Origin: Acaryochloris sp. CRU_2_0 | GTDB lineage: Bacteria > Cyanobacteriota > Cyanobacteriia > Thermosynechococcales > Thermosynechococcaceae | Length of the DNA stretch: 64,000 nucleotides | Assembly (NCBI GenBank): GCA_012034865.1 | Contig: JAAUOM010000001.1 | Span: 1 to 64,000, forward strand | Direction: 5' to 3' | Part shown: piece after piece, positions 16,370 to 28,016 of the stretch | Numbering within the stretch: position 1 is the first letter of the stretch | Layout: each line of letters starts with the position of its first letter | Notes under the pieces: generated by a model | The model's database searches: none | What the model saw: only the letters and a program-made list of their open reading frames with translations | Told to the model about the DNA's origin: nothing | Translations under genes and position numbers: made by a program

Positions 16370-17119
16370 CTAATCTTTTTGAGGAATTTCATCTTTTTGC
16401 GGACAGTTCTCCCACAAGTGTGTTGTTTGTCGCAGACTGGTAAAATCGCCATTGCCTAAAATCAGGTGATCGAGGAGCGGAATACCTAAAATTTGGGCTC
16501 CCACTAGAAGTTGCTGTGTCAGTTCCAGATCTTCAGGGCTGGGATCAATGTGGCCGGAAGGATGATTGTGAGCGATAATTGCGCGAGTTGCGCCCTGCCG
16601 AATAATTTCACGAAAAATATCGCGGGGGTGGGCCAGGGTTTCGGTTGCCGTCCCAATGCTAATCACCTGGGTGCCTAACAATCGGTGTTTGACATCTAGT
16701 AACAAGACCGCGAAACGCTCTTGGGTTTGCCACATCAGCTCCCCAGCTAAGGCGGCAGCAGCCACAGCAGGATCGTCAATGATCGTCTTTTCTGGGGGTC
16801 GAGATTGACAAACTCTTTTGCCAAGTTCAATGGCAGCGAGTATCGTTGTGGCTTTGGCAGGACCAATTCCTGAAATTTGGGTCAGTTCGGCTGCACTCAC
16901 ATCTCGCAGCACCATCAATGGATCTTGTTGATGTTCACTAAACTGTTGGAGGATATGTTGACCCAGGCCGATCGCAGATAATTTCCCCGGCCCCTGTCCT
17001 GTCCCTAATAAAATAGCTAATAATTCTGCGTGGGTTAAATACTTGGCTCCCTGTGCTAGGAGCCGTTCTCGTGGGCGATCGCTGGCTGGTAAATCTAGAA
17101 TGCGTAGACTGTAGGTCAT
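16370..17119 (-). CDS. radC: RadC family JAB/MPN-domain protein
   Basis: The 249-aa protein carries an N-terminal helix-hairpin-helix segment ([19 protein letters not shown]) and a C-terminal JAB metalloprotease-like domain. The zinc-site signature HxHx7SxxD is complete in [14 protein letters not shown]. The family was named for DNA repair, but its biochemical role remains uncertain. There is a short run of lysine-rich residues at the C-terminus (QKDEIPQKD). It appears to be a single-gene unit. Confidence 0.93.
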
Positions 17120-17227
17120 AGTTGGGCGACGAATAGGCTCCTTTATTTAGCCGCAAAGTAGGGACTGATCAAATTGCACTCTATATTTAGTACGCCCACT
17201 TTGCTGGCTGGCCCCAACAAATACAGA

Positions 17228-17938
17228 TTAGGGTTTGGATACTGCCCCTGTCCGACAATCCCGCAGCCAAGCGCGAATGGCCGTCGCCAATTTGCCTTGA
17301 CTGGTGTCTTGGGGGGGTAAGGGAGGGCCTATCTGCGGATAAGAGCCTTGAATGGAGAACAACATAACAAACCGCCACCCCTGCTTACTAGGAACTAAGA
17401 AGAGCCAATGGTACTCTTGATATTCGCGGATTTGAGTGCGAGAGTTGCTGATGGGCTTCTGGCTAGGGGAAAAGCGTTGTCTGTGCTGTTGTTCTGCCAG
17501 CCGATTCTCGTAACGCCGTACCAAGGTGGTAAAAAACACCTGCTGAGGTTGAGTGCCAGGGAGAGGGGTTACAGCAGAGGGTAAGGGAATAGGGCTTAAG
17601 GGTAGAGGCTCAAATTCCGGTTTGCCTGCTACGAGTAGATAGCTGTGGGGAATGCCTAAGCGAGTACTAATGCGATTAGTATAACTGGGTAAGTCCAAGA
17701 GTAAATGCTGGACTAGGGGTTGGAACTGTTGGGGACAGCCTGGGCGGGTGGCAGGAAACTTTTGCTGCACGATGCGTTGAGGTCGCCGTTCCACACTTAG
17801 ACTAGGGAGATTAGGGGTAAAGCAGGTCAACAGACACAAACTCAATACCAGAGTTGGCAAACGCTGCGGGTAGGTTACGCCCAGGGTAAGAGGGAAACCA
17901 GGGATCTGGATCTGGGGCATGGGTAATGGGTTGGTCAA
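17228..17938 (-). CDS. Conserved hypothetical protein with N-terminal hydrophobic segment
   Basis: The 236-aa protein has a hydrophobic stretch near residues 28-42 (TLVLSLCLLTCFTPN) that could be a signal anchor. The rest is Pro/Arg/Gln-rich with a conserved-looking C-terminal block YHWLFLVPSKQGWRFVMLF. It lacks any motif I can assign, and a periplasmic or membrane-anchored location is inferred only from the hydrophobic segment. The real start could lie at a later residue. Confidence 0.6.
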   Translation of the reverse strand: MTNPLPMPQIQIPGFPLTLGVTYPQRLPTLVLSLCLLTCFTPNLPSLSVERRPQRIVQQKFPATRPGCPQQFQPLVQHLLLDLPSYTNRISTRLGIPHSYLLVAGKPEFEPLPLSPIPLPSAVTPLPGTQPQQVFFTTLVRRYENRLAEQQHRQRFSPSQKPISNSRTQIREYQEYHWLFLVPSKQGWRFVMLFSIQGSYPQIGPPLPPQDTSQGKLATAIRAWLRDCRTGAVSKP

Positions 17939-18121
17939 TTACGAGATAGTTTACCCCTGCCTGGAGAACAACCCTAGGGATTAATGTCCGTTTCTGGTCC
18001 TCTGTTGGCGTACCTTAAGATCGGTTTCTTGGGCAAACTAAGGAAAAATCAACCCTACACACTTGGCGCAATGAGCTGCAATGCGTTGAGTCATTGATAA
18101 GCTAAAATTGCAATTGCTTCT

Positions 18122-18943
18122 TTACTCTACTGCTCTGGGAATCGGGAGTGGACGACTAGTCGCTAAAAGGGAATGTAAATGAACAACATTGCCAATCACA
18201 GCAACGGCAGGGGCTTCAAATTCAGCCGCTGCCATCTGTGCCAGAATGGTCGCTAAGGTACCAATCAGTTCTTGTTGATCGGGACGGGTTCCCCAACGCA
18301 CCAAAGCAATGGGCGTATCTGGGTCTTTACCCGCTGCTTGCAATTCTGCCAAAATATGGGGCAAATTGTGAACCCCCATGTAGATAACTAGGGTTTCCGA
18401 TGCCGTTGCTATTGCTTGCCAGTTCACCTGAGGGTGATATTTATCCACCGATTCATGCCCCGTCACAAAGGTGACTGAAGAACTATAGTTGCGGTGGGTG
18501 ACCGGAATGCCTGCATAGGCAGGGGCGGCGATGCCAGCGGTAATTCCTGGCACAATTTCAACAGAGATGCCTGCTTGAATTAAATCTTCCATTTCTTCGC
18601 CCCCCCGACCAAACACAAAGGGATCTCCGCCCTTGAGTCGCACCACGACAGGATGGGACTGAGCCTTGTTGATTAAGAGTTGGGTGATTTCTGTCTGGAG
18701 CAGGGAGTGACGGCCTCGTCGTTTGCCGGCATGAATCCGCTCCGCTTGGGGATTAATCATGGCTAGAATTTCTGGGCTGACGAGGGCATCGTAGAGGATG
18801 ACGTCGGCACATTCTAAGAGGGTTTTACCCTTCAAGGTCAACAAGCCTGGATCTCCTGGCCCTGCCCCCACAAGATAGACTTTCCCAAGCCAATGAGTTT
18901 TCCCAAGACAATCAGCTTGTGCCTCTGGGGAATCAAGGGTCAT
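18122..18943 (-). CDS. cobA: Uroporphyrinogen-III C-methyltransferase
   Basis: CobA uses two SAM molecules to methylate uroporphyrinogen III to precorrin-2, the branch point to siroheme and cobalamin. The 273-aa protein has the tetrapyrrole methylase signatures VGAGPGDPGLLTLKG near the start, VVRLKGGDPFVFGRGGEE around 98-115, GITAGIAAPAYAGIPVTHR, and ETLVIYMG. It is a stand-alone methyltransferase, without the CysG dehydrogenase/chelatase part. The next gene downstream in the window, on the same strand and upstream in transcription, is a sirohydrochlorin chelatase-like gene. The two could act in sequence. Confidence 0.95.
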   Translation of the reverse strand: MTLDSPEAQADCLGKTHWLGKVYLVGAGPGDPGLLTLKGKTLLECADVILYDALVSPEILAMINPQAERIHAGKRRGRHSLLQTEITQLLINKAQSHPVVVRLKGGDPFVFGRGGEEMEDLIQAGISVEIVPGITAGIAAPAYAGIPVTHRNYSSSVTFVTGHESVDKYHPQVNWQAIATASETLVIYMGVHNLPHILAELQAAGKDPDTPIALVRWGTRPDQQELIGTLATILAQMAAAEFEAPAVAVIGNVVHLHSLLATSRPLPIPRAVE

Positions 18944-19001
18944 AGATCACCTAAAGAAGAACAAGAAAGCCATCAAGCAGATATTAAATCTTGGATTAAA
19001 G

Positions 19002-19700
19002 TTACAAGCCCAGGATTAGGTTGTAAAGGTGAAGATAGGATAAATGAATGTGTTTAAAATCACATTCTAACCGATGGATCTCTTGAGAAATGGCATCTAT
19101 GATACTTCCTGTAAACAGAAAATAGGGTTTAATGCCGACCCTGACGCCCCTTTGAGTCGCCATTGCTGCAACTTGTTGGCGCAAGCTGGGCGGCACAGAC
19201 CAATAGGCACAATTCGCACCGAGGTGGTTGGCTAAGTGTTGGATCGGAGTATTTCCCCCCGGATGGCGACTGCCGTGGGCTAGTAAAATCCAGTGGTCAA
19301 CTTGATCCGGGGGCATTCCCTCTCTTAAGAGATCTACCATAGCAGGGTGACTGCCGAGGTGCGATCGCACCACCATCTGTAAACGTGCATCTAAATGGTG
19401 GTGGACAGTGGCCACCACAGCGGGGATATCCACCTGCACATGGACACCGGGATGCAGAAATAACGGCAAAATTGTTAACTGCTCAATATTCTGCTCGATC
19501 AACTGCTTGCCCCAGGTACACAGTTGTTGTTCTAGGGGAATGGAGCCAAATTCTAGAGTGCCGATTTGCAGGAGAGGCATTTGATCGGATTGCTGGATTA
19601 ACGCACGGCGAAGGAACTCACCCAATTGCTGAAAGGCTTGGTGCGATCGCGGATCTCGACTGCCATGGGCAACCAAAAAATAAGCAGAGTGAGGACTCAA
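19002..19700 (-). CDS. Sirohydrochlorin chelatase (CbiX/SirB family)
   Basis: The enzyme would insert Fe2+ or Co2+ into sirohydrochlorin for siroheme or cobalamin. The 232-aa protein shows a duplicated chelatase fold. FLVAHGSRDPRSHQAF at the N-terminus and ILLAHGSRHPGGNTPIQ in the second half both contain the metal-binding HGSR block. The length fits the long two-domain CbiX form. The start appears to be TTG (TTG AGT CCT). It ends 58 bases before cobA on the same strand, which suggests co-transcription of two consecutive pathway steps. Metal specificity cannot be told from sequence. Confidence 0.88.
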   Translation of the reverse strand: MSPHSAYFLVAHGSRDPRSHQAFQQLGEFLRRALIQQSDQMPLLQIGTLEFGSIPLEQQLCTWGKQLIEQNIEQLTILPLFLHPGVHVQVDIPAVVATVHHHLDARLQMVVRSHLGSHPAMVDLLREGMPPDQVDHWILLAHGSRHPGGNTPIQHLANHLGANCAYWSVPPSLRQQVAAMATQRGVRVGIKPYFLFTGSIIDAISQEIHRLECDFKHIHLSYLHLYNLILGL

Positions 19701-19730
19701 GATTCAGTAAACCCTTCTCATGTAGGCAAA

Positions 19731-21631
19731 TTACAAAGGCAACGCCTCCGATGGCAAAGGCTCAGGTAAGCTGGGTTTTTTGTCCACCGCTTGCCCATAT
19801 TCCACAACAATTTGCCGAAATTCATCGCCTTCCAGGGTTTCTTGTTCCAGGAGGATCTCCACTAGCTTATCCACCAAATTGCGATTTTCCCGCAGCATCC
19901 GCCGAGCTTTCTCATAACAATGCATGACGATTTCTCGGACTTTTCGATCAATTTGCACCGCCATTTCTTGAGAATATTCAGCTCGATTAGCCCAATCTCC
20001 CCCTAAAAAGACATCACCGCTCTCACTTTCTAGAGCGACATAGCCCAAATCAGACATACCGAGCTGGGTTACCATTTCTCGGGTTAAGTTGGCAACATTC
20101 TTGAGATCACTGCTGGCACCAATCGTGACTTCGGCATCGCCAAACACTTCGACTTCAGCCGCACGTCCGCCCAATAGAATCGTAATTTGATCTAAAAGCC
20201 ACGCCCGAGTATACAAGCCACTATCGACCCGCTCTTCATTATAGATGGGCTGGGAAAAGCCCCCAATTCCACCAGAACGAGGCAAAATCGTCACCTTATT
20301 CAGGGGATCGGCGTCTTTTAGTAAAGTCTCTAGCAAGGCATGGCCGACCTCATGGTAGGCAATCAGCCATTTCTTCTTACTGTCCAAATGCGGAGCCATC
20401 GCCAGACCGATGGTGATCCGATCAATGGCATCATCCACTTCTAGATCAGTGATCACCTCTTTGCGACGACGGGCTGTCAAGATGGCCGCCTCATTTAAGA
20501 GATTCGCTAAGGCTGCCCCGGAAAACCAGGTGTGCGGCGAGCAATGGCTTCCAAAGACACTTGAGGAGACAGTTTTTTCTCTCGACTATGCACCTCTAAA
20601 ATACCCAGACGCCCTGTGAACGTCGGTAAATCAACCGTGATCTGGCGATCAAAGCGACCCGGTCTCAGTAAGGCTGTATCTAAAATATCCGGGCGATTCG
20701 TGGCAGCAATGACAATAATGCCAGAGTTGCCTTCAAACCCATCCATTTCCGTGAGCAATTGATTTAGGGTTTGTTCGCGCTCGTCATTTCCGCCACCGAT
20801 GCCCGCACCGCGCTGGCGACCCACTGCATCAATCTCATCAATAAATACCAAACAGGGGGCATTTTCCTTGGCTTTTTTGAATAGATCCCGCACCCGCGAG
20901 GCTCCCACCCCCACAAACATTTCCACAAATTCAGAGCCAGAAATGCTGAAGAAAGGAACGCCTGCTTCACCGGAGATGGCTTTGGCCAGCAGCGTTTTAC
21001 CAGTACCCGGTGGTCCAATTAACAAGACCCCTCTAGGGATCCGCGCCCCCACTGCCGTAAATCGCTCCGGTTGTTTGAGGAACGTAACGACTTCTTGTAA
21101 TTCTTCCTTAGCTTCTTCAATCCCGGCAACATCCACAAAAGTGACCCCTGTCTCGGATTCCATTTGAAACCGAGCCTTGGACTTACCAAAGTTCAAAATT
21201 TGACCTGGACCACTATTGGAGCCTGCTGTTCGGCGTAGAAAAACCAGAAATAGGAAGACGATGATCAGGATGAAGAAAAACTGAGCGAGTATCCCTAGCA
21301 AGGGGTTTTCCCCTGGATCAGGAATTTGCTCAAAATCAACCTTTTTGGTTCTGAGAATCTCGTAGAGTTGGGGATCTTTATCAAAGAGGAGTACCTCAGA
21401 AAAATCAGCTTTTTCCGGTTGTCCTTTGAGTTTAAACTCAGCTAGACCTTGTTTTTCATAGATTTTGACGCTCTGAATCCGACCAGCTTTAATATGCTCT
21501 ACAAAATTACTGTAGGATACCTTTTCCTCCTTGGACTGGGCCAAAACAGGCAAAGACTGAGACAGAAAAACAGTGGCGATGAGAGCAGAGAGTCGTCCAA
21601 CCCATCTGCGTTGACCTAAGTTTCGGTTCAT
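19731..21631 (-). pseudogene. ftsH: ATP-dependent zinc metalloprotease FtsH, split by a single-base frameshift
   Basis: FtsH is a membrane-anchored AAA protease. In cyanobacteria its members degrade damaged D1 and other membrane proteins. Part one (21631 to 20507, starting [12 protein letters not shown]) has a signal-like helix, a second helix around [15 protein letters not shown], Walker A GPPGTGKT, Walker B LVFIDEID and the second region of homology RPGRFDRQI. Part two (to 19731) has the zinc site [10 protein letters not shown] and the protease domain. The break is at an A4 run at 20522-20525. One added base restores [20 protein letters not shown] and a 633-aa protein, the normal family length. 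Either the gene is broken or a base was undercalled. An upstream start at 21679 would displace the signal helix. Confidence 0.9.
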
Positions 21632-21891
21632 GCTGATGTAATCTTTGGGCTTTTGTTGAATGTAATCTGAGCAACCCATCGTTAGGGGTATAGAAAAATC
21701 TTACTTCCAGCCTAGTTTACAAGTCTTTGCCTCAGCAACTTTTCCTGCCTTTTTCATAGGGCAGGCGATGGGCAACTGGACATTTGGGCTTTGAGTGCGC
21801 GCTCTCTCAATAATTGGGGAATGCTGAGTACGGTATCTTTATACCCACCATCTGCCCATATTAACAGCCTGATGTTTTTCCCTAAACTGAC

Positions 21892-23250
21892 GTGAATACT
21901 CGCCGAATCTTACTTCTTTTCATCCGTCAATGGCCCCTGGGATCAATCGCGGGTGTGCCCATTCAGGTTGATATTTCCTGTGTACTATCGGTGTTGGTTT
22001 GGTTCTATGTTCTCGCTCGGATGAGCCAAGACTTTAACCCCAGGCTAGGGGGGGCCATTGGCATCATTGTGAGTTTGGCTCTACCGATTTCTGTTTTTGT
22101 GCATGAGTTGAGTCGGGCACTGACTGCTAAGCATTACCAGATTCCGGTTGAGGGCGTCTATTGCCGGGGGATGGGGGCGATGGCCAAAATAGGCGATCAG
22201 TTTGCCCATCCTTTGCAAATGCTGGAAGTTTATTTTTCGGGATCCCTGGTTACCTTCATTTTGTATGGGGTGCTGAATTTACTCAGTACCTTGCCCCTTA
22301 ACTGGGGAGGAACGGCGCTGATTTCACTGAATCACATCAAGGAATTCAACTTTGCATTTGCGTTTTTTTCCCTGATGCCTTTAATTCCCCTTAATGGCGG
22401 TTACTTGTTCAAAGGATTGCGGTGGGAGTGGACTCGTAAACCGATGTCGCTCACGAGGTTTGACGGGTATGGTGCCTATATCGCTGGTGCAGGGAGTCTG
22501 GCTTTAGGGATGATATGGTACGGACAAAAGCCCTTTTTAAGCCTTTGGACGTTTTATTTGGGGATTATGACTTGTCTGCGGCATTTGCTATTTGAAGGTT
22601 CTTTGCTGCCCTTGGCTCCCGTGTTGAAGATGCAGCAATCTGGGGCTAGATTCTCCACCCCTCAGCCTAGGCAAAGGACTTTTCAGTTTGGATCGATGCC
22701 GTCGGTAACGACGGCTGGGTCAACCCCATCTCAGCCTATCCGAGCCGTTGATTTTAGCTATCTGGATGCTGAGTTTTTGTCGGTAGCTGATCCCGATCAA
22801 TCCTTTCAAGAAGGTATGGTGGCAGCGGTGGCGATGGAACTGACTAGGGCGATCGCAGCCTTTAGTCAAGTCCTGAGCGCCGATCCCGATAACTATATGG
22901 CTTTGCATAACCGAGGCAATGCCTACTTGCAATCGGGGAACAAATCAGCGGCGTTGACTGATTTTCAGGCGGCTCTCCGCCTCCAGCCTGATCTTTTAGA
23001 AACTTATTTGGGTAAAGGTAACACCTACTTTGCCCTAGGGGATTTTCCAGGGGCAATTATGGAGTATTTTGAACTTCTCAGCCGCGATCCAGACTGTGCG
23101 AGGGCTTATTTTAATCGAGCTAGTGCCCAGGTTCGCAATGGCAATCGTCAATTGGCGATCGCCGATTATCAAAAGGCTCAGACCTTATTCACAGATAAGG
23201 CCGATCTCACCCACCTGATCGACGAACGATTAGAACGCCTGACGACTTAG
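21892..23250 (+). CDS. Site-2-protease-like membrane protein with TPR domain, catalytic residues lost
   Basis: The 452-aa protein starts at GTG 21892. Residues 1-230 follow the fold of cyanobacterial M50 site-2 proteases, with several transmembrane helices. The zinc motif HExxH reads HELSR (71-75), so the second histidine is Arg75. The usual NxxPxxPLDGG motif reads SLMPLIPLNGG (160-170), so the metal-binding Asp is Asn168. The intervening GP motif is FSGSLV. Proteolysis is therefore unlikely. Residues about 275-450 carry TPR repeats (AFSQVLSADPDNYMALHNRG and the following NAYLQSG) for protein binding. It is transcribed head-to-head with the split ftsH, 260 bases apart. An adaptor or chaperone role at the membrane is an inference. 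Confidence 0.8.
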   Translation: MNTRRILLLFIRQWPLGSIAGVPIQVDISCVLSVLVWFYVLARMSQDFNPRLGGAIGIIVSLALPISVFVHELSRALTAKHYQIPVEGVYCRGMGAMAKIGDQFAHPLQMLEVYFSGSLVTFILYGVLNLLSTLPLNWGGTALISLNHIKEFNFAFAFFSLMPLIPLNGGYLFKGLRWEWTRKPMSLTRFDGYGAYIAGAGSLALGMIWYGQKPFLSLWTFYLGIMTCLRHLLFEGSLLPLAPVLKMQQSGARFSTPQPRQRTFQFGSMPSVTTAGSTPSQPIRAVDFSYLDAEFLSVADPDQSFQEGMVAAVAMELTRAIAAFSQVLSADPDNYMALHNRGNAYLQSGNKSAALTDFQAALRLQPDLLETYLGKGNTYFALGDFPGAIMEYFELLSRDPDCARAYFNRASAQVRNGNRQLAIADYQKAQTLFTDKADLTHLIDERLERLTT

Positions 23251-23378
23251 GGATAGGTCTACCTGTACACCAGCCGCTTGCTTAAACGCCCTGCTCCAGT
23301 AAACAATAAGAATGGATAGTCTAAGGCCGATCTCTTTGGCAAAAGACTGCCCAGCGGATGTGCGATCGGGAGAGCAAT

Positions 23379-24824
23379 GTGAGCCAACAATTTGACTATG
23401 ACCTGGTAATTATCGGTGCTGGCGTGGGCGGTCATGGTGCCGCCTTACACGCAGTGGAGTGTGGCCTGAAAACAGCGATCATCGAAGCAGCGGATATGGG
23501 GGGAACCTGTGTGAATCGGGGCTGTATTCCTTCCAAGGCGCTGTTGGCGGCTTCGGGTCGGGTGCGAGAACTCCGGGATCACCATCACTTGCAATCCTTG
23601 GGGATTCAATTGGGTCAGGTCAACTTTGATCGCGGCCAGATTGCTACCCATGCCGATCAGTTAGTGAATACGATTCGCGGCAATTTGACGAATAGTTTGA
23701 CCCGTCTCAAGGTAGAGATTATTCACGGCTGGGGCAAAGTCGTCGGCAATCAAAAAGTCGTGGTCAAGGCCGATGCGGGGGAGCAAACCCTAACGGCTCG
23801 CGATATTATTATTGCCAGTGGGTCAGTTCCTTGGATACCGCCCGGTATTGAGGTTGATGGCCAGACTGTCTTTACAAGTGATGATGCCATTCGCTTGGCT
23901 TGGTTGCCGGAATGGGTGGCCATTATTGGCAGTGGTTATATTGGTTTGGAATTTGCTGATGTCTATACGGCGCTAGGGAGCGAAGTCACGATCATTGAAG
24001 CCCTCGATCAATTGATGCCTACCTTTGATCCGGATATTGCCAAGATTGCCAAGCGGGTCTTGATTGATCCCCGTGATATTGAAACCCATGCAGGCCGCTT
24101 AGCCCAAAAAGTTATGCCGGGATCGCCTGTGGTGATCGAGTTAGCTGATGTCAAAACCAAAGAAGTGGTGGAGGTTTTGGAAGTCGATGCCTGTTTAGTG
24201 GCCACTGGCCGCATCCCAGCGACGGATAATCTGGGTCTGGAATCCGTGAGTGTGGAAACGGACAAACGGAGGTTTATTCCCGTCAATGACCGCATGGAAG
24301 TTTTGAGTCAAGGGGAAGCTGTTCCTCATCTCTATGCTATTGGCGATGCCACGGGCAAAATGATGTTGGCTCATGCTGCCTCTGCTCAGGGAATTGTGGT
24401 GGTCGAAAATATTTGCGATCGCCCCCGGGAGATCAACTATCGCAGTATTCCCGCTGCTGCCTTTACCCACCCTGAAATTAGTTTTGTTGGTCTGACTGAA
24501 CCGCAAGCCAAGGAAGTTGCCCAGGCTGAAGGTTTCAAAATCAAAACCGTGCGCTCTTACTTTAAGGCCAACTCCAAAGCCCTTGCTGAAAGCGAAGCCG
24601 ATGGTTTGGCAAAGCTGATTTACCGTGAAGATACAGGAGAAATTTTAGGCGGCCATATTATTGGCTTACATGCGGCGGATTTAATCCATGAGGTGTCGAA
24701 TGCGATCGCCCAAGGCCAAACGGTTCAAAGTCTCTCCCACCTAGTCCATACCCATCCCACCCTTTCCGAGGTCTTGGATGAAGCCTTTAAACGGGCAGCC
24801 GTGGGCTTGGGTGTATCCCACTAA
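23379..24824 (+). CDS. lpdA: Dihydrolipoamide dehydrogenase (E3)
   Basis: The flavoprotein reoxidises lipoamide in 2-oxoacid dehydrogenase complexes or the glycine cleavage system, with NAD+. The N-terminal FAD-binding motif is [13 protein letters not shown]. The redox disulfide lies in [14 protein letters not shown], and the NAD-binding motif is [14 protein letters not shown]. The C-terminal HTHPTLSEV block provides the catalytic His-Glu pair. Two starts are possible: ATG 23358 and GTG 23379. GGAG at 23369-23372 lies 6 bases before the GTG, which gives [12 protein letters not shown] and 481 aa. The stop codon overlaps the start of dtd by one base. Confidence 0.93.
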
Positions 24825-25282
24825 TGCGGATTGTTTTGCAAAGAGTCAAAGCATCCCGCGTAGAAGTCTCCGGTCAAGTTATTGGACAGATTAAAAAAGG
24901 TTTGAATTTACTTGTAGGAATTTCTACTTCTGATACAGAAGTAGAAATTGCTTGGCTGGCTCGTAAATGCTTGGAATTACGGATTTTTTCTGACTCCTTG
25001 GGTAAGCTGTCTCAATCGATAGTGGATATTCAAGGGGCTATATTGGTCATCAGTCAATTTACCCTGTATGGGGATTGTCGTAGGGGTCGCCGTCCTTCGT
25101 TTGATCAAGCTGCACCCAGCCCATTGGCAGAAAAACACTATCAGTCCTTTGTGGCCAAACTCAAAGAAAGTGGTCTGCAAGTAGAAACAGGTCAATTTGG
25201 AGCAATGATGACTGTTTTCATTGAAAATGATGGACCTGTGACCTTGATTTTGCAACGAGAGGCCAGCCAAACTTCCTTATAA
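24824..25282 (+). CDS. dtd: D-aminoacyl-tRNA deacylase
   Basis: Dtd hydrolyses D-amino acids wrongly attached to tRNA. The 152-aa protein has the expected length and the conserved catalytic [17 protein letters not shown] block near residues 73-89. The cis-Gly-Pro motif is in [10 protein letters not shown] near the C-terminus. Its ATG shares the last base of the lpdA stop (TAATG), so the two genes are probably translated from one message. The pairing has no obvious pathway link. Confidence 0.95.
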
Positions 25283-25360
25283 GCTCTAACATGGCAGCGA
25301 ATGGGTGGGCAGTCGCAATCCCCCATCTTTCAAACGAGGGATAAGCCAACTCATGGGGAT

Positions 25361-26005
25361 TTATTGAGCAGACCCAGCTTGCAATCGGGTCAAAAGGATC
25401 TCTGCTCGTCGAGAGATTTCGAGCCAATTGCCCGCCTTCACGGCTGCCGCTGGAAATAAATCGCTGGATAGACCCACTGCGATCGCACCTGCTTGAATCA
25501 TCGCCTCCGCATTATCCAGCGAAACTCCCCCCGTAGGAATCATTGGAATATTTCCCAGTGGTCCTTGCAGACTCCGAATATATTGACTGCCCCCCATCTG
25601 TTCTACGGGGAAGACCTTGACACTACTCGCCCCTGCTTGCCAAGCCGCCACAATTTCGGTTGGGGACAACGCCCCTGGAATAACAGCAATATTCTCAGCT
25701 AAAGCTGCGTTGATGATACTGGTATCGACATGGGGACTGAAACAGAACTGAGCGCCAGCTTGAATCGCTACGTGCAATTGATCGACGCTCAAAATAGTGC
25801 CCACGCCAATCTGGCACTCTGGTAACCCTTGGCGCAACTGAGTGACGAGGGCAGGGGCTTGATCACTATTCCAGGCAATCTCAATCAACTGCATACCTCC
25901 CTGAGCAATGGCCTTTGCCATCTGCATCCCTAGGGTCAATTCAGGGGCTCGCACCACGCCGATTGCCCGATGCCCTCTCAGGGTTTCTAACCAGTGGGTT
26001 TGCAC
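25361..26005 (-). CDS. eda: 2-keto-3-deoxy-6-phosphogluconate aldolase (KDPG/KHG aldolase)
   Basis: The enzyme splits KDPG to pyruvate and glyceraldehyde-3-phosphate, the last step of the Entner-Doudoroff route. The 214-aa TIM barrel shows the catalytic Glu in MQLIEIAWNS, the phosphate-binding blocks GVGTILS and IPTGGVS, and the Schiff-base Lys in SSVKVFPVEQMGG. It is complete. The enzyme is widely present in cyanobacteria, where an Entner-Doudoroff role has been proposed. A role in degrading other keto acids is possible. No edd gene is in the window. Confidence 0.92.
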   Translation of the reverse strand: MQTHWLETLRGHRAIGVVRAPELTLGMQMAKAIAQGGMQLIEIAWNSDQAPALVTQLRQGLPECQIGVGTILSVDQLHVAIQAGAQFCFSPHVDTSIINAALAENIAVIPGALSPTEIVAAWQAGASSVKVFPVEQMGGSQYIRSLQGPLGNIPMIPTGGVSLDNAEAMIQAGAIAVGLSSDLFPAAAVKAGNWLEISRRAEILLTRLQAGSAQ

Positions 26006-26044
26006 AAGATGTTCACACTATGGACGGAACGCGATCCACACCCC

Positions 26045-27007
26045 TTACCGCTGAGCATAGACCGTCATCGGTTCTTTAATCCAACGAATATAGAGGTGCT
26101 TAAAGGTTGATCTCAGTACCCGAGGGGCACCAAAATCGATGGGCATTAATTGATCAGGGAGTTGCCAACCCTCAACCTTTAGGGCTTGGGGATGGAGGAG
26201 AGGGAACTCAATGGTTTGTAAGTCAGGGCAATAGCCTAAGCGCAGGGCGGTGGCCATGGTCGGTACCTGCTCTGGGTTGATTTGTAAAATCTCTAACATG
26301 ACCCGGTCTAAGGCAAATACATCATTAGCTGCTGCTAAGATTCCCAAGGGTCGAGGTTCACCTCCACTGGGACCATTGCCTTCATGACCAATAATGCCAT
26401 CTAAAATGGTCAGAGTGGGTGCGATGGTGCGGGCGGTTTCTACCAGCATCTCTCCAAATCGATTGATATCCTTACCCGCTTCCATATGCCACCAAGCTTT
26501 CATCTTGCCAGGAACACATCCAAATAAATTTTTGACCCCTAAGGTCATGGTCAGTTGTACATGGGATTTAACCTTGGGCAAATTGATCACCACATCTGCT
26601 GCCATTGCTTCCTTAGACAAGCGCAGATGGTCAAAGCTAGCACTCTGGGTCGGATAACGCCCCCCATGCAGCTCCACAATCGGCAGTTGGAGCGCTTCTA
26701 GCATTGGTAAATAGCCATTGGCCTTCGCCACTCCCTGGGCACTACCAAAGGCAGGGCTATCGCCGATAAAAGGTTTTCCCCCCACTGCCATCACTTGTTC
26801 AGCAACCGCAGCAACTAATTCAGGACGGGTGGTACATTCTTTGCCTGGTCGGGCACCTGTGAGTAAATTCGGTTTGAGTAAGACGCGATCGCCCGGTTTT
26901 ACAAAAGCAGCCATCCCACCCAAGGGGGCTAATACCTCCTCTAGAGAAGCCCTCAGTTGTAAAGGATCATAGGTATGGGCTTGCACCAAGCTAACAGCAG
27001 CAATCAT
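26045..27007 (-). CDS. DUF362 domain-containing protein
   Basis: The ATG at 27007 (MIAAVSLVQAHTYDP) gives 320 aa; a TTG start at 27034 is also open. The protein belongs to DUF362. Typical blocks are VLLKPNLLTGARPGKECTTR, GDSPAFGSA, DVVINLPKVKSHVQLTMTLG and LFGCVPGKMK. Many DUF362 proteins carry a ferredoxin-like cluster domain at one end, but none is seen here. The family function is not established. It lies 39 bases upstream of eda on the same strand and may share its transcript. Confidence 0.87.
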   Translation of the reverse strand: MIAAVSLVQAHTYDPLQLRASLEEVLAPLGGMAAFVKPGDRVLLKPNLLTGARPGKECTTRPELVAAVAEQVMAVGGKPFIGDSPAFGSAQGVAKANGYLPMLEALQLPIVELHGGRYPTQSASFDHLRLSKEAMAADVVINLPKVKSHVQLTMTLGVKNLFGCVPGKMKAWWHMEAGKDINRFGEMLVETARTIAPTLTILDGIIGHEGNGPSGGEPRPLGILAAANDVFALDRVMLEILQINPEQVPTMATALRLGYCPDLQTIEFPLLHPQALKVEGWQLPDQLMPIDFGAPRVLRSTFKHLYIRWIKEPMTVYAQR

Positions 27008-27049
27008 ATTCTCAATCCTCTGCAACTCAAACAATAGGGAAAAAAATCA

Positions 27050-27799
27050 TCACTTGGGGACTTCAGAAGTAGACTCTGTATCCGTAGGATCGGCATCATC
27101 AGAGGTATCCTCTACCGCTGCTTCTGCCTTGGCTTCATCAGCAGCCGCTTCTCGTCGCTTGCGCTGAGACTCTAAAATATCCTCCATCGCTTGACGAACT
27201 TGCACAATCTTGTCTAAATTTCCTCGATAGATCTCCAGATCCTTTTGCACTTTACTTTCTGAAAGGTTCAATACCGTACAAATATTGGGCAAGAATTCTG
27301 CTAAAGACGCCTCATCTTGGGTGATATTGCCCTCACTCAGTTCCAAGAGTGTAAACAAACCAATGGCAAACAGGCGGCTGTATTTAAACTTGGGATTCTG
27401 GGAAATATTGCGCAATTGCCATTGCAACTCATCTCCTCCCGAAGCAGCGGCTTGGGTGATCCACGCTAGCATTTCCTGGGCAGATTTAGATTGAGCCAGC
27501 TCTTGTAATCTTTGACTATCTTTACGCATTTGCAGCGGATCAGAATTTTGAGCCTGACAAAGTGCATTAAAGATATTGCCCTTATCATGTTCAGGTTGAT
27601 ACCCTTCCATAAACCGATCAAATGAAGTCACAACCCCTAAGGCAAAAATAGGGTCGTAGCGAAAATCTTCATTAACCTGCAATAGGTGCATTTCTACCAT
27701 CAACTCTTCCACAACCCTTCGATAAACAGAGTTTACCGGGCGAGTATGGATAGAATAGAAGGCTCGTTTAGTATCAGAAACAGTACGCAGGTTATTCAC
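27050..27799 (-). CDS. thf1: Psb29/Thf1 (thylakoid formation protein)
   Basis: The 249-aa protein starts MNNLRTVSDTKRAFYSIHTR and contains FALGVVTSFDRFMEGYQPE and a long helical body, as in Psb29/Thf1 of cyanobacteria and plastids. It also has a coiled-coil basic stretch and an acidic tail (ESQRKRREAAADEAKAEA, then DTSDDADPTD). In studied species it associates with FtsH complexes and supports photosystem II repair and photosystem I stability. The gene stands 43 bases upstream of the DUF362 gene in the same direction. Confidence 0.95.
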   Translation of the reverse strand: MNNLRTVSDTKRAFYSIHTRPVNSVYRRVVEELMVEMHLLQVNEDFRYDPIFALGVVTSFDRFMEGYQPEHDKGNIFNALCQAQNSDPLQMRKDSQRLQELAQSKSAQEMLAWITQAAASGGDELQWQLRNISQNPKFKYSRLFAIGLFTLLELSEGNITQDEASLAEFLPNICTVLNLSESKVQKDLEIYRGNLDKIVQVRQAMEDILESQRKRREAAADEAKAEAAVEDTSDDADPTDTESTSEVPK

Positions 27800-28016
27800 A
27801 ATTAAGACAGTTAGGAGGAAAAACTACAATTATTATCACAGCTAAACGGATGGGTTGCTAGCTGAAACAGACGAACACAAAATACTAGGAACCAGAATGA
27901 TGACTCGATAGCTATGTCCCACCCTATTGATGATATTTCAGGATTCACGATATTTCACAACCTGTAATGGGTAGGATAAATAGTAGGTGCGAACAGCAAA
28001 ACTAGGGTAGACAGTT

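Follow-up and report, generated by a model that had tools for sequence, protein, structure and literature searches.

A conserved and probably inactive site-2 protease homologue with a C-terminal TPR domain in Acaryochloris

Described systems and the Acaryochloris locus

Rhomboid pseudoproteases are well known, and the iRhoms and Derlins illustrate their principle, in which a dead intramembrane protease serves as a client binder. Among site-2 proteases (S2Ps), plant EGY3 has been named as the only pseudoenzyme homologue (PMC9355673), and our literature search turned up neither a bacterial S2P pseudoprotease nor an M50-TPR pseudoenzyme, an absence that is not proof. Here we describe a gene in the first 64,000 nucleotides of contig JAAUOM010000001.1 of Acaryochloris sp. 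CRU_2_0 (the whole stretch, hereafter the window), the product of which joins an M50 (S2P) membrane domain to a C-terminal tetratricopeptide repeat (TPR) domain and, judged from its sequence, is very probably a conserved but inactive S2P homologue. The pseudo-S2P-TPR gene (21892..23250) encodes 452 amino acids, with a GTG start at 21892 and a stop codon ending at 23250; the start position is kept in the aligned orthologues (MNxR...). All features given below lie on the forward strand unless stated otherwise.

Several described proteins resemble the pseudo-S2P in part. The nearest sequence relative in our scans is the active HELGH paralogue of cyanobacteria, which has the same M50 membrane fold but differs in possessing the HExxH, NxxP, and LDGG motifs, the FGG loop, and the AGP motif, in carrying a CBS domain instead of TPRs, and in being set apart by a strongly supported long branch. 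The closest solved relative by sequence, which is also the S2P match in the fold search, is M. jannaschii S2P (PDB 3B4R), an active zinc enzyme with no TPR. EGY3, a chloroplast S2P homologue, is likewise conserved and classed as a pseudoprotease; it was compared by description only, its paper does not mention TPR (PMC9355673), and the nearest relatives of the pseudo-S2P found here are the cyanobacterial HELGH paralogues. Bacillus subtilis YqgP also combines an intramembrane-protease scaffold with C-terminal TPRs and has an activity-independent adaptor role, but its rhomboid fold is unrelated, it is still an active protease, and its TPRs are extracellular (PMC7231995). The iRhoms and Derlins belong to another protein family and are eukaryotic. 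The pseudo-S2P is homologous to S2Ps yet lacks the catalytic features of active ones and, if our inference holds, would work like the rhomboid pseudoproteases. With its scaffold intact, a new TPR domain, and an active paralogue alongside it in the cell, a clade of bacterial S2P pseudoproteases would make it possible to ask what the S2P scaffold does without the chemistry, and whether intramembrane proteases became adaptors independently in the metalloprotease and rhomboid folds.

Catalytic motifs, predicted fold, and selection

The S2P catalytic motifs were compared among eight orthologues, including the window protein, and 30 active relatives, which have HELGH, NLIP, and LDGG at the matching sites. 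A profile of the group aligned with M. jannaschii S2P (3b4r) across the whole core in a PDB sequence search (E value of 4.6e-13), and also with SpoIVFB; on the basis of this alignment, Arg75 corresponds to the second zinc-binding His, Asn168 to the zinc-binding Asp, and Ser160 to the Asn of NxxP. In the window protein, HELSR (residues 71-75; 22102..22116) replaces HExxH, and the second zinc His is Arg75; all eight orthologues have HExxR, whereas His occupies this position in 30/30 active relatives. SLMP (residues 160-163; 22369..22380) replaces NxxP, with the Pro retained and the Asn gone; this Asn, present in all of the active relatives, is lost throughout the group (Ser in seven members, His in one). 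LNGG (residues 167-170; 22390..22401) replaces LDGG, and the zinc-ligand Asp is Asn in the window protein and in 6/8 members overall, the other two, G006 (LDGG) and G009 (LDGA), having Asp. Because G006 is placed within the genus (a placement with support of only 86/66) and G002, which has Asn, falls outside the remaining members, the most parsimonious reading is that Asn reverted to Asp in G006, and residue 168 would therefore be free of catalytic constraint. Since zinc binding by HExxH and an Asp (PMC7728848) defines S2P catalysis, the pseudo-S2P very probably does not cut.

The changes extend beyond these motifs. Arg92 (22165..22167), in a predicted membrane-reentrant beta loop, is fixed in the group, in contrast to Phe in 30/30 active relatives, and Glu112 (22225..22227), at the start of the next helix, is a group-specific acidic residue (8/8) where the relatives mostly have Gln and otherwise Ala, Trp, or Leu. 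Further residues fixed in the group, with those of the active proteins in parentheses, include C30 (W), Y82 (Q), G93 (L), K150 (A/S/G), and Y196 (Q). The Pro of AGP is Ser or Thr in all eight members, and residues of the re-entrant loop (FLFGG) are replaced as well. His71 and Glu72 are invariant across all 38 aligned proteins. An earlier note on this DNA, made from the sequence alone, had reported the coordinates of the reading frame, its undamaged state, and the HELSR, SLMP, and LNGG variants, all of which were reproduced here. Its statement that the visible catalytic motifs are altered holds in the sense that each is changed, but the motifs are not erased, as HExxH keeps its first His and its Glu, and NxxP its Pro; of the two residues for which it proposed checking fixation in an orthologous group, Arg75 is fixed, unlike Asn168. 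No orthologue with HExxH was found among the eight members. We rejected an assembly error or recent mutation because the orthologues share Arg75 but encode it with different synonymous codons (CGG in two members, and CGC and CGA in three each); the codons vary at the third base, and the amino acid has therefore been maintained.

Full-length orthologues are present in 7/7 genomes of Acaryochloris, including the window's own; the eighth comes from a single genome (G009) assigned to a different genus within the family. The orthologues are 50-67% identical in the six other genomes of the genus and ~30-34% in G009. The eight members form one clade (support 100/99), and a profile built without G002 and G009 scores these two at 320 and 147 bits, respectively, compared with 96 bits for the next protein, an ordinary S2P. 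In a class-wide sample of 390 genomes, members of the group score at least 324 bits and all other proteins at most 143, and no further member was found in 386 phylum-sampled genomes, which overlap the class-wide sample, at E ≤ 1e-42. A scan of genome contigs with the alignment recovered four Acaryochloris records, and one with the single sequence gave no match; a plasmid scan returned no record spanning 80% of the query, with TPR-only or M50-only records among the matches listed. Independent convergent loss in G009 was considered and rejected, as its protein has the TPRs, R75, R92, E112, and K150 in common with the group and clusters with it, albeit on a long branch. By these sequence comparisons, the family is a clade-specific group of bacterial S2P homologues with a single origin.

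Homology to S2Ps is evident from both sequence and predicted fold. The six-helix M50 domain (residues 13-236; 21928..22599) was identified by Pfam (PF02163, 34.7 bits against a curated cut-off of 27.2), the PDB profile search, AlphaFold2, and Foldseek. It is followed by a fast-evolving linker (residues 237-300; 22600..22791), which low identity and low predicted local distance difference test (pLDDT) scores suggest is disordered, and by the TPR domain (residues ~303-433; 22798..23190), matched by TPR_1 (PF00515, 1.2e-20) and several other TPR models, which match all eight orthologues. The AlphaFold2 model, computed from the 38-sequence alignment (8 members, 30 active relatives), has a mean pLDDT of 84; most of the S2P core and the TPR domain scores at least 90 (~95 for the TPRs), and residues 241-296 score below 50. 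The predicted template modelling score of 0.58 is expected for two domains on a flexible tether. Foldseek matched the model to M. jannaschii S2P (E value of 1.1e-5; TM-score of 0.62 by target length) and to many TPR structures, which dominate the search because both domains were searched as one chain. The predicted helices (28-46, 53-81, 107-133, 139-161, 189-211, and 214-235) fit the six-helix S2P plan, with a predicted beta hairpin at 86-100 (strands 86-92 and 95-100). Arg75 is six residues short of the end of its helix (53-81), and Glu112 is five residues past the start of the following one (107-133); the two may therefore be at a similar depth. They may form a salt bridge.

The group evolves under purifying selection. 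The pairwise ratio of nonsynonymous to synonymous substitution rates (dN/dS, NG86) is 0.06-0.17 in the group and 0.02-0.07 in the active paralogue of the same genomes. Several of the dS estimates are undefined or affected by saturation, and the closer pairs, with G003, G005, and G001 (0.08-0.115), are therefore the safest. In these pairs, the M50 and TPR domains are equally conserved (82-86% identity; linker, 57-65%), so that the M50 half is not a decaying leftover. Losses of catalytic residues are thus fixed in an orthologous group under purifying selection. The earlier note's proposal of a dead protease that kept its scaffold is borne out at the sequence level by the loss of the second His and the NxxP Asn in all eight members under strong selection. 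The C-terminal TPR domain it described is present as well, and the S2P fold is predicted with high confidence; the replaced residues of the FLFGG loop and the AGP Pro are family-conserved positions beyond the motifs it listed.

Possible function and competing explanations

We favor the reading that the pseudo-S2P is a clade-specific S2P pseudoprotease acting as an adaptor or regulator of membrane proteins, with a probability of roughly 0.6 for the whole chain of reasoning. An ancestral S2P would have lost the second zinc-binding His, which became Arg, and the NxxP Asn and would then have been retained by selection; its C-terminal TPR domain occupies the position of the CBS domain in active relatives. 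The catalytic zinc would no longer be bound, and there would be no cleavage; the six-helix domain would still accept or contact a transmembrane segment through the old active-site cleft, and the TPRs would grip a soluble partner or the tail of a client, most likely in the cytosol if the CBS domain of SpoIVFB is a guide. Membrane proteins could in this way be presented to another protease, ftsH being the divergent neighbor, or be shielded from the active S2P paralogue. The earlier note's suggestion that the protein could hold or deliver membrane proteins would fit both the TPRs and what known pseudoproteases do. The adaptor or regulator role is favored because of two precedents: SpoIVFB binds the tail of its substrate through a CBS domain, and its inactive E44Q form still holds substrate in the cleft (PMC9042235); YqgP, a rhomboid for which three TPRs are predicted at the C terminus, brings MgtE to FtsH independently of its own activity (PMC7231995). 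A bolder form is speculative and rather unlikely: the group would be the first bacterial S2P pseudoprotease family, with the zinc site rebuilt as a fixed charged pocket (Glu72, Arg75, Arg92, and Glu112) that binds a transmembrane client or ligand without hydrolysing it and with the TPR tail passing the client on to FtsH or another processive protease, as the S2P counterpart of the rhomboid/Derlin adaptor route.

Several observations count against an inactive adaptor. The predicted fold depends partly on the active homologues in the AlphaFold2 alignment. His71 and Glu72 persist in all members and the Asp in two, which makes a weak or unusual metal site conceivable. The TPRs are generic and point to no particular client. 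As for partners, ftsH is not adjacent in G009, the neighborhood in G002 differs (its contig ends ~950 bases upstream), ftsH and the pseudo-S2P gene are not co-directional, and the one gene likely to share its operon, a STAS-domain gene, has been lost or has decayed in 3/7 genomes.

The residues that persist would allow a slow active protease in which His71, Glu72, Asp168 where present, and other residues bind a metal. Invariance of His71 and Glu72 in the group and the Asp of G006 and G009 agree with such a site; the replacement of the second His and the NxxP Asn in every member, the loss of the Asp in six, the changed re-entrant loop and AGP Pro, and a positive Arg at a ligand position, which should disfavor Zn2+, make it improbable. 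Still less credible is a decaying gene, a recent pseudoenzyme heading toward loss: the group does evolve ~2-3 times faster than the active paralogue, but the frame is open in 8/8 members, dN/dS is ~0.1, the M50 domain is as conserved as the TPRs, and a conserved upstream block has been kept even after loss of the STAS gene. We rejected gene decay on dN/dS and domain conservation.

Other alternatives concern the partner. The protein could be a dominant-negative or heteromeric regulator that binds and shields the active S2P paralogue or its substrate in an iRhom-like manner. The HELGH paralogue is present in 7/7 genomes of the genus and in G009, and membrane proteins lodged in the SpoIVFB cleft control that enzyme (PMC9042235), but nothing seen in the genomes linked the two genes, and the two proteins are very divergent (~25% identity), the pseudo-S2P having no counterpart of the paralogue's CBS domain. 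This role is doubtful. Delivery of membrane proteins specifically to the neighboring FtsH is one branch of the favored adaptor or regulator reading and, taken alone, is likewise on the unlikely side. A link to the divergent ftsH is plausible as a lead resting on adjacency in 6/8 genomes, and YqgP is a precedent with TPRs; against this, ftsH is not the neighbor seen in G002 and G009, the two genes are divergent and not co-transcribed, the ftsH-cbiX-cobA block is perhaps conserved for unrelated reasons, and the adjoining ftsH of the window reads as frameshifted.

Genomic neighborhood and other M50 proteins

In the genomes where ftsH adjoins the pseudo-S2P gene, cbiX- and cobA-like genes follow ftsH. 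The window copy (19731..21679, reverse strand) is split into two open reading frames by a 1-nt deletion found in this assembly only, near 20500 in a T run (TTTT, compared with TTTTT in G003), which may be an assembly error or a real inactivation; ftsH at this locus is a single frame of 634-648 amino acids in five other genomes, and three additional full-length ftsH copies are present in the window's genome. A conserved TAGTTTACAAnTCnTTTnCTCAGCAAC block (window ~21710-21740 and the orthologous ftsH upstream regions) lies beside the divergent ftsH start and resembles, though imperfectly, a high-light (RpaB) direct repeat. Downstream of the pseudo-S2P gene, a gene named from sequence as dihydrolipoyl dehydrogenase (lpdA-like; 23358..24824) recurs in the five genomes, among the six with the ftsH locus, whose contig extends far enough. 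A search of 17000-28000 against Rfam gave zero matches.

Directly upstream of the pseudo-S2P gene and on the same strand, four Acaryochloris genomes have a STAS-domain gene (PF01740, 9.6e-21; L100:5968-6291, L102:7278-7601, L104:8964-9287, and L105:3056-3391), possibly of the anti-sigma-antagonist type. A 22-residue remnant is found in G004 (L103:5713-5778), and no STAS gene was seen upstream of the pseudo-S2P gene in the window's genome or G002. A conserved block of the GTTCTCT...GGGGAATTCT-GAGTATAC or GTTCTCT...GGGAATTCT-GAGTATAC type (21796..21837), alignable in 7/7 Acaryochloris genomes, directly precedes the pseudo-S2P gene in the window; elsewhere the STAS gene sits between the two. The block is a probable promoter or regulatory site, and its persistence after loss of the STAS gene makes it the probable driver of pseudo-S2P expression.

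The closest proteins outside the group that were examined have HELGH, NLIPGLPLDGG, and a C-terminal extension, which in the HELGH copy of the window's genome contains a CBS domain (24.6 bits against a cut-off of 24). The same genome encodes a second M50-TPR fusion (L008:1414-2823, also L123; G000 contig C188), which has intact HEFGH and LDGF and, unlike the pseudo-S2P, keeps the zinc motif. It also encodes a 582-amino-acid M50 protein (L006, 721-2469, reverse strand; G000 contig C111) in which HELGH is intact, the N-terminal part has membrane segments, and the C-terminal region resembles helical repeats.
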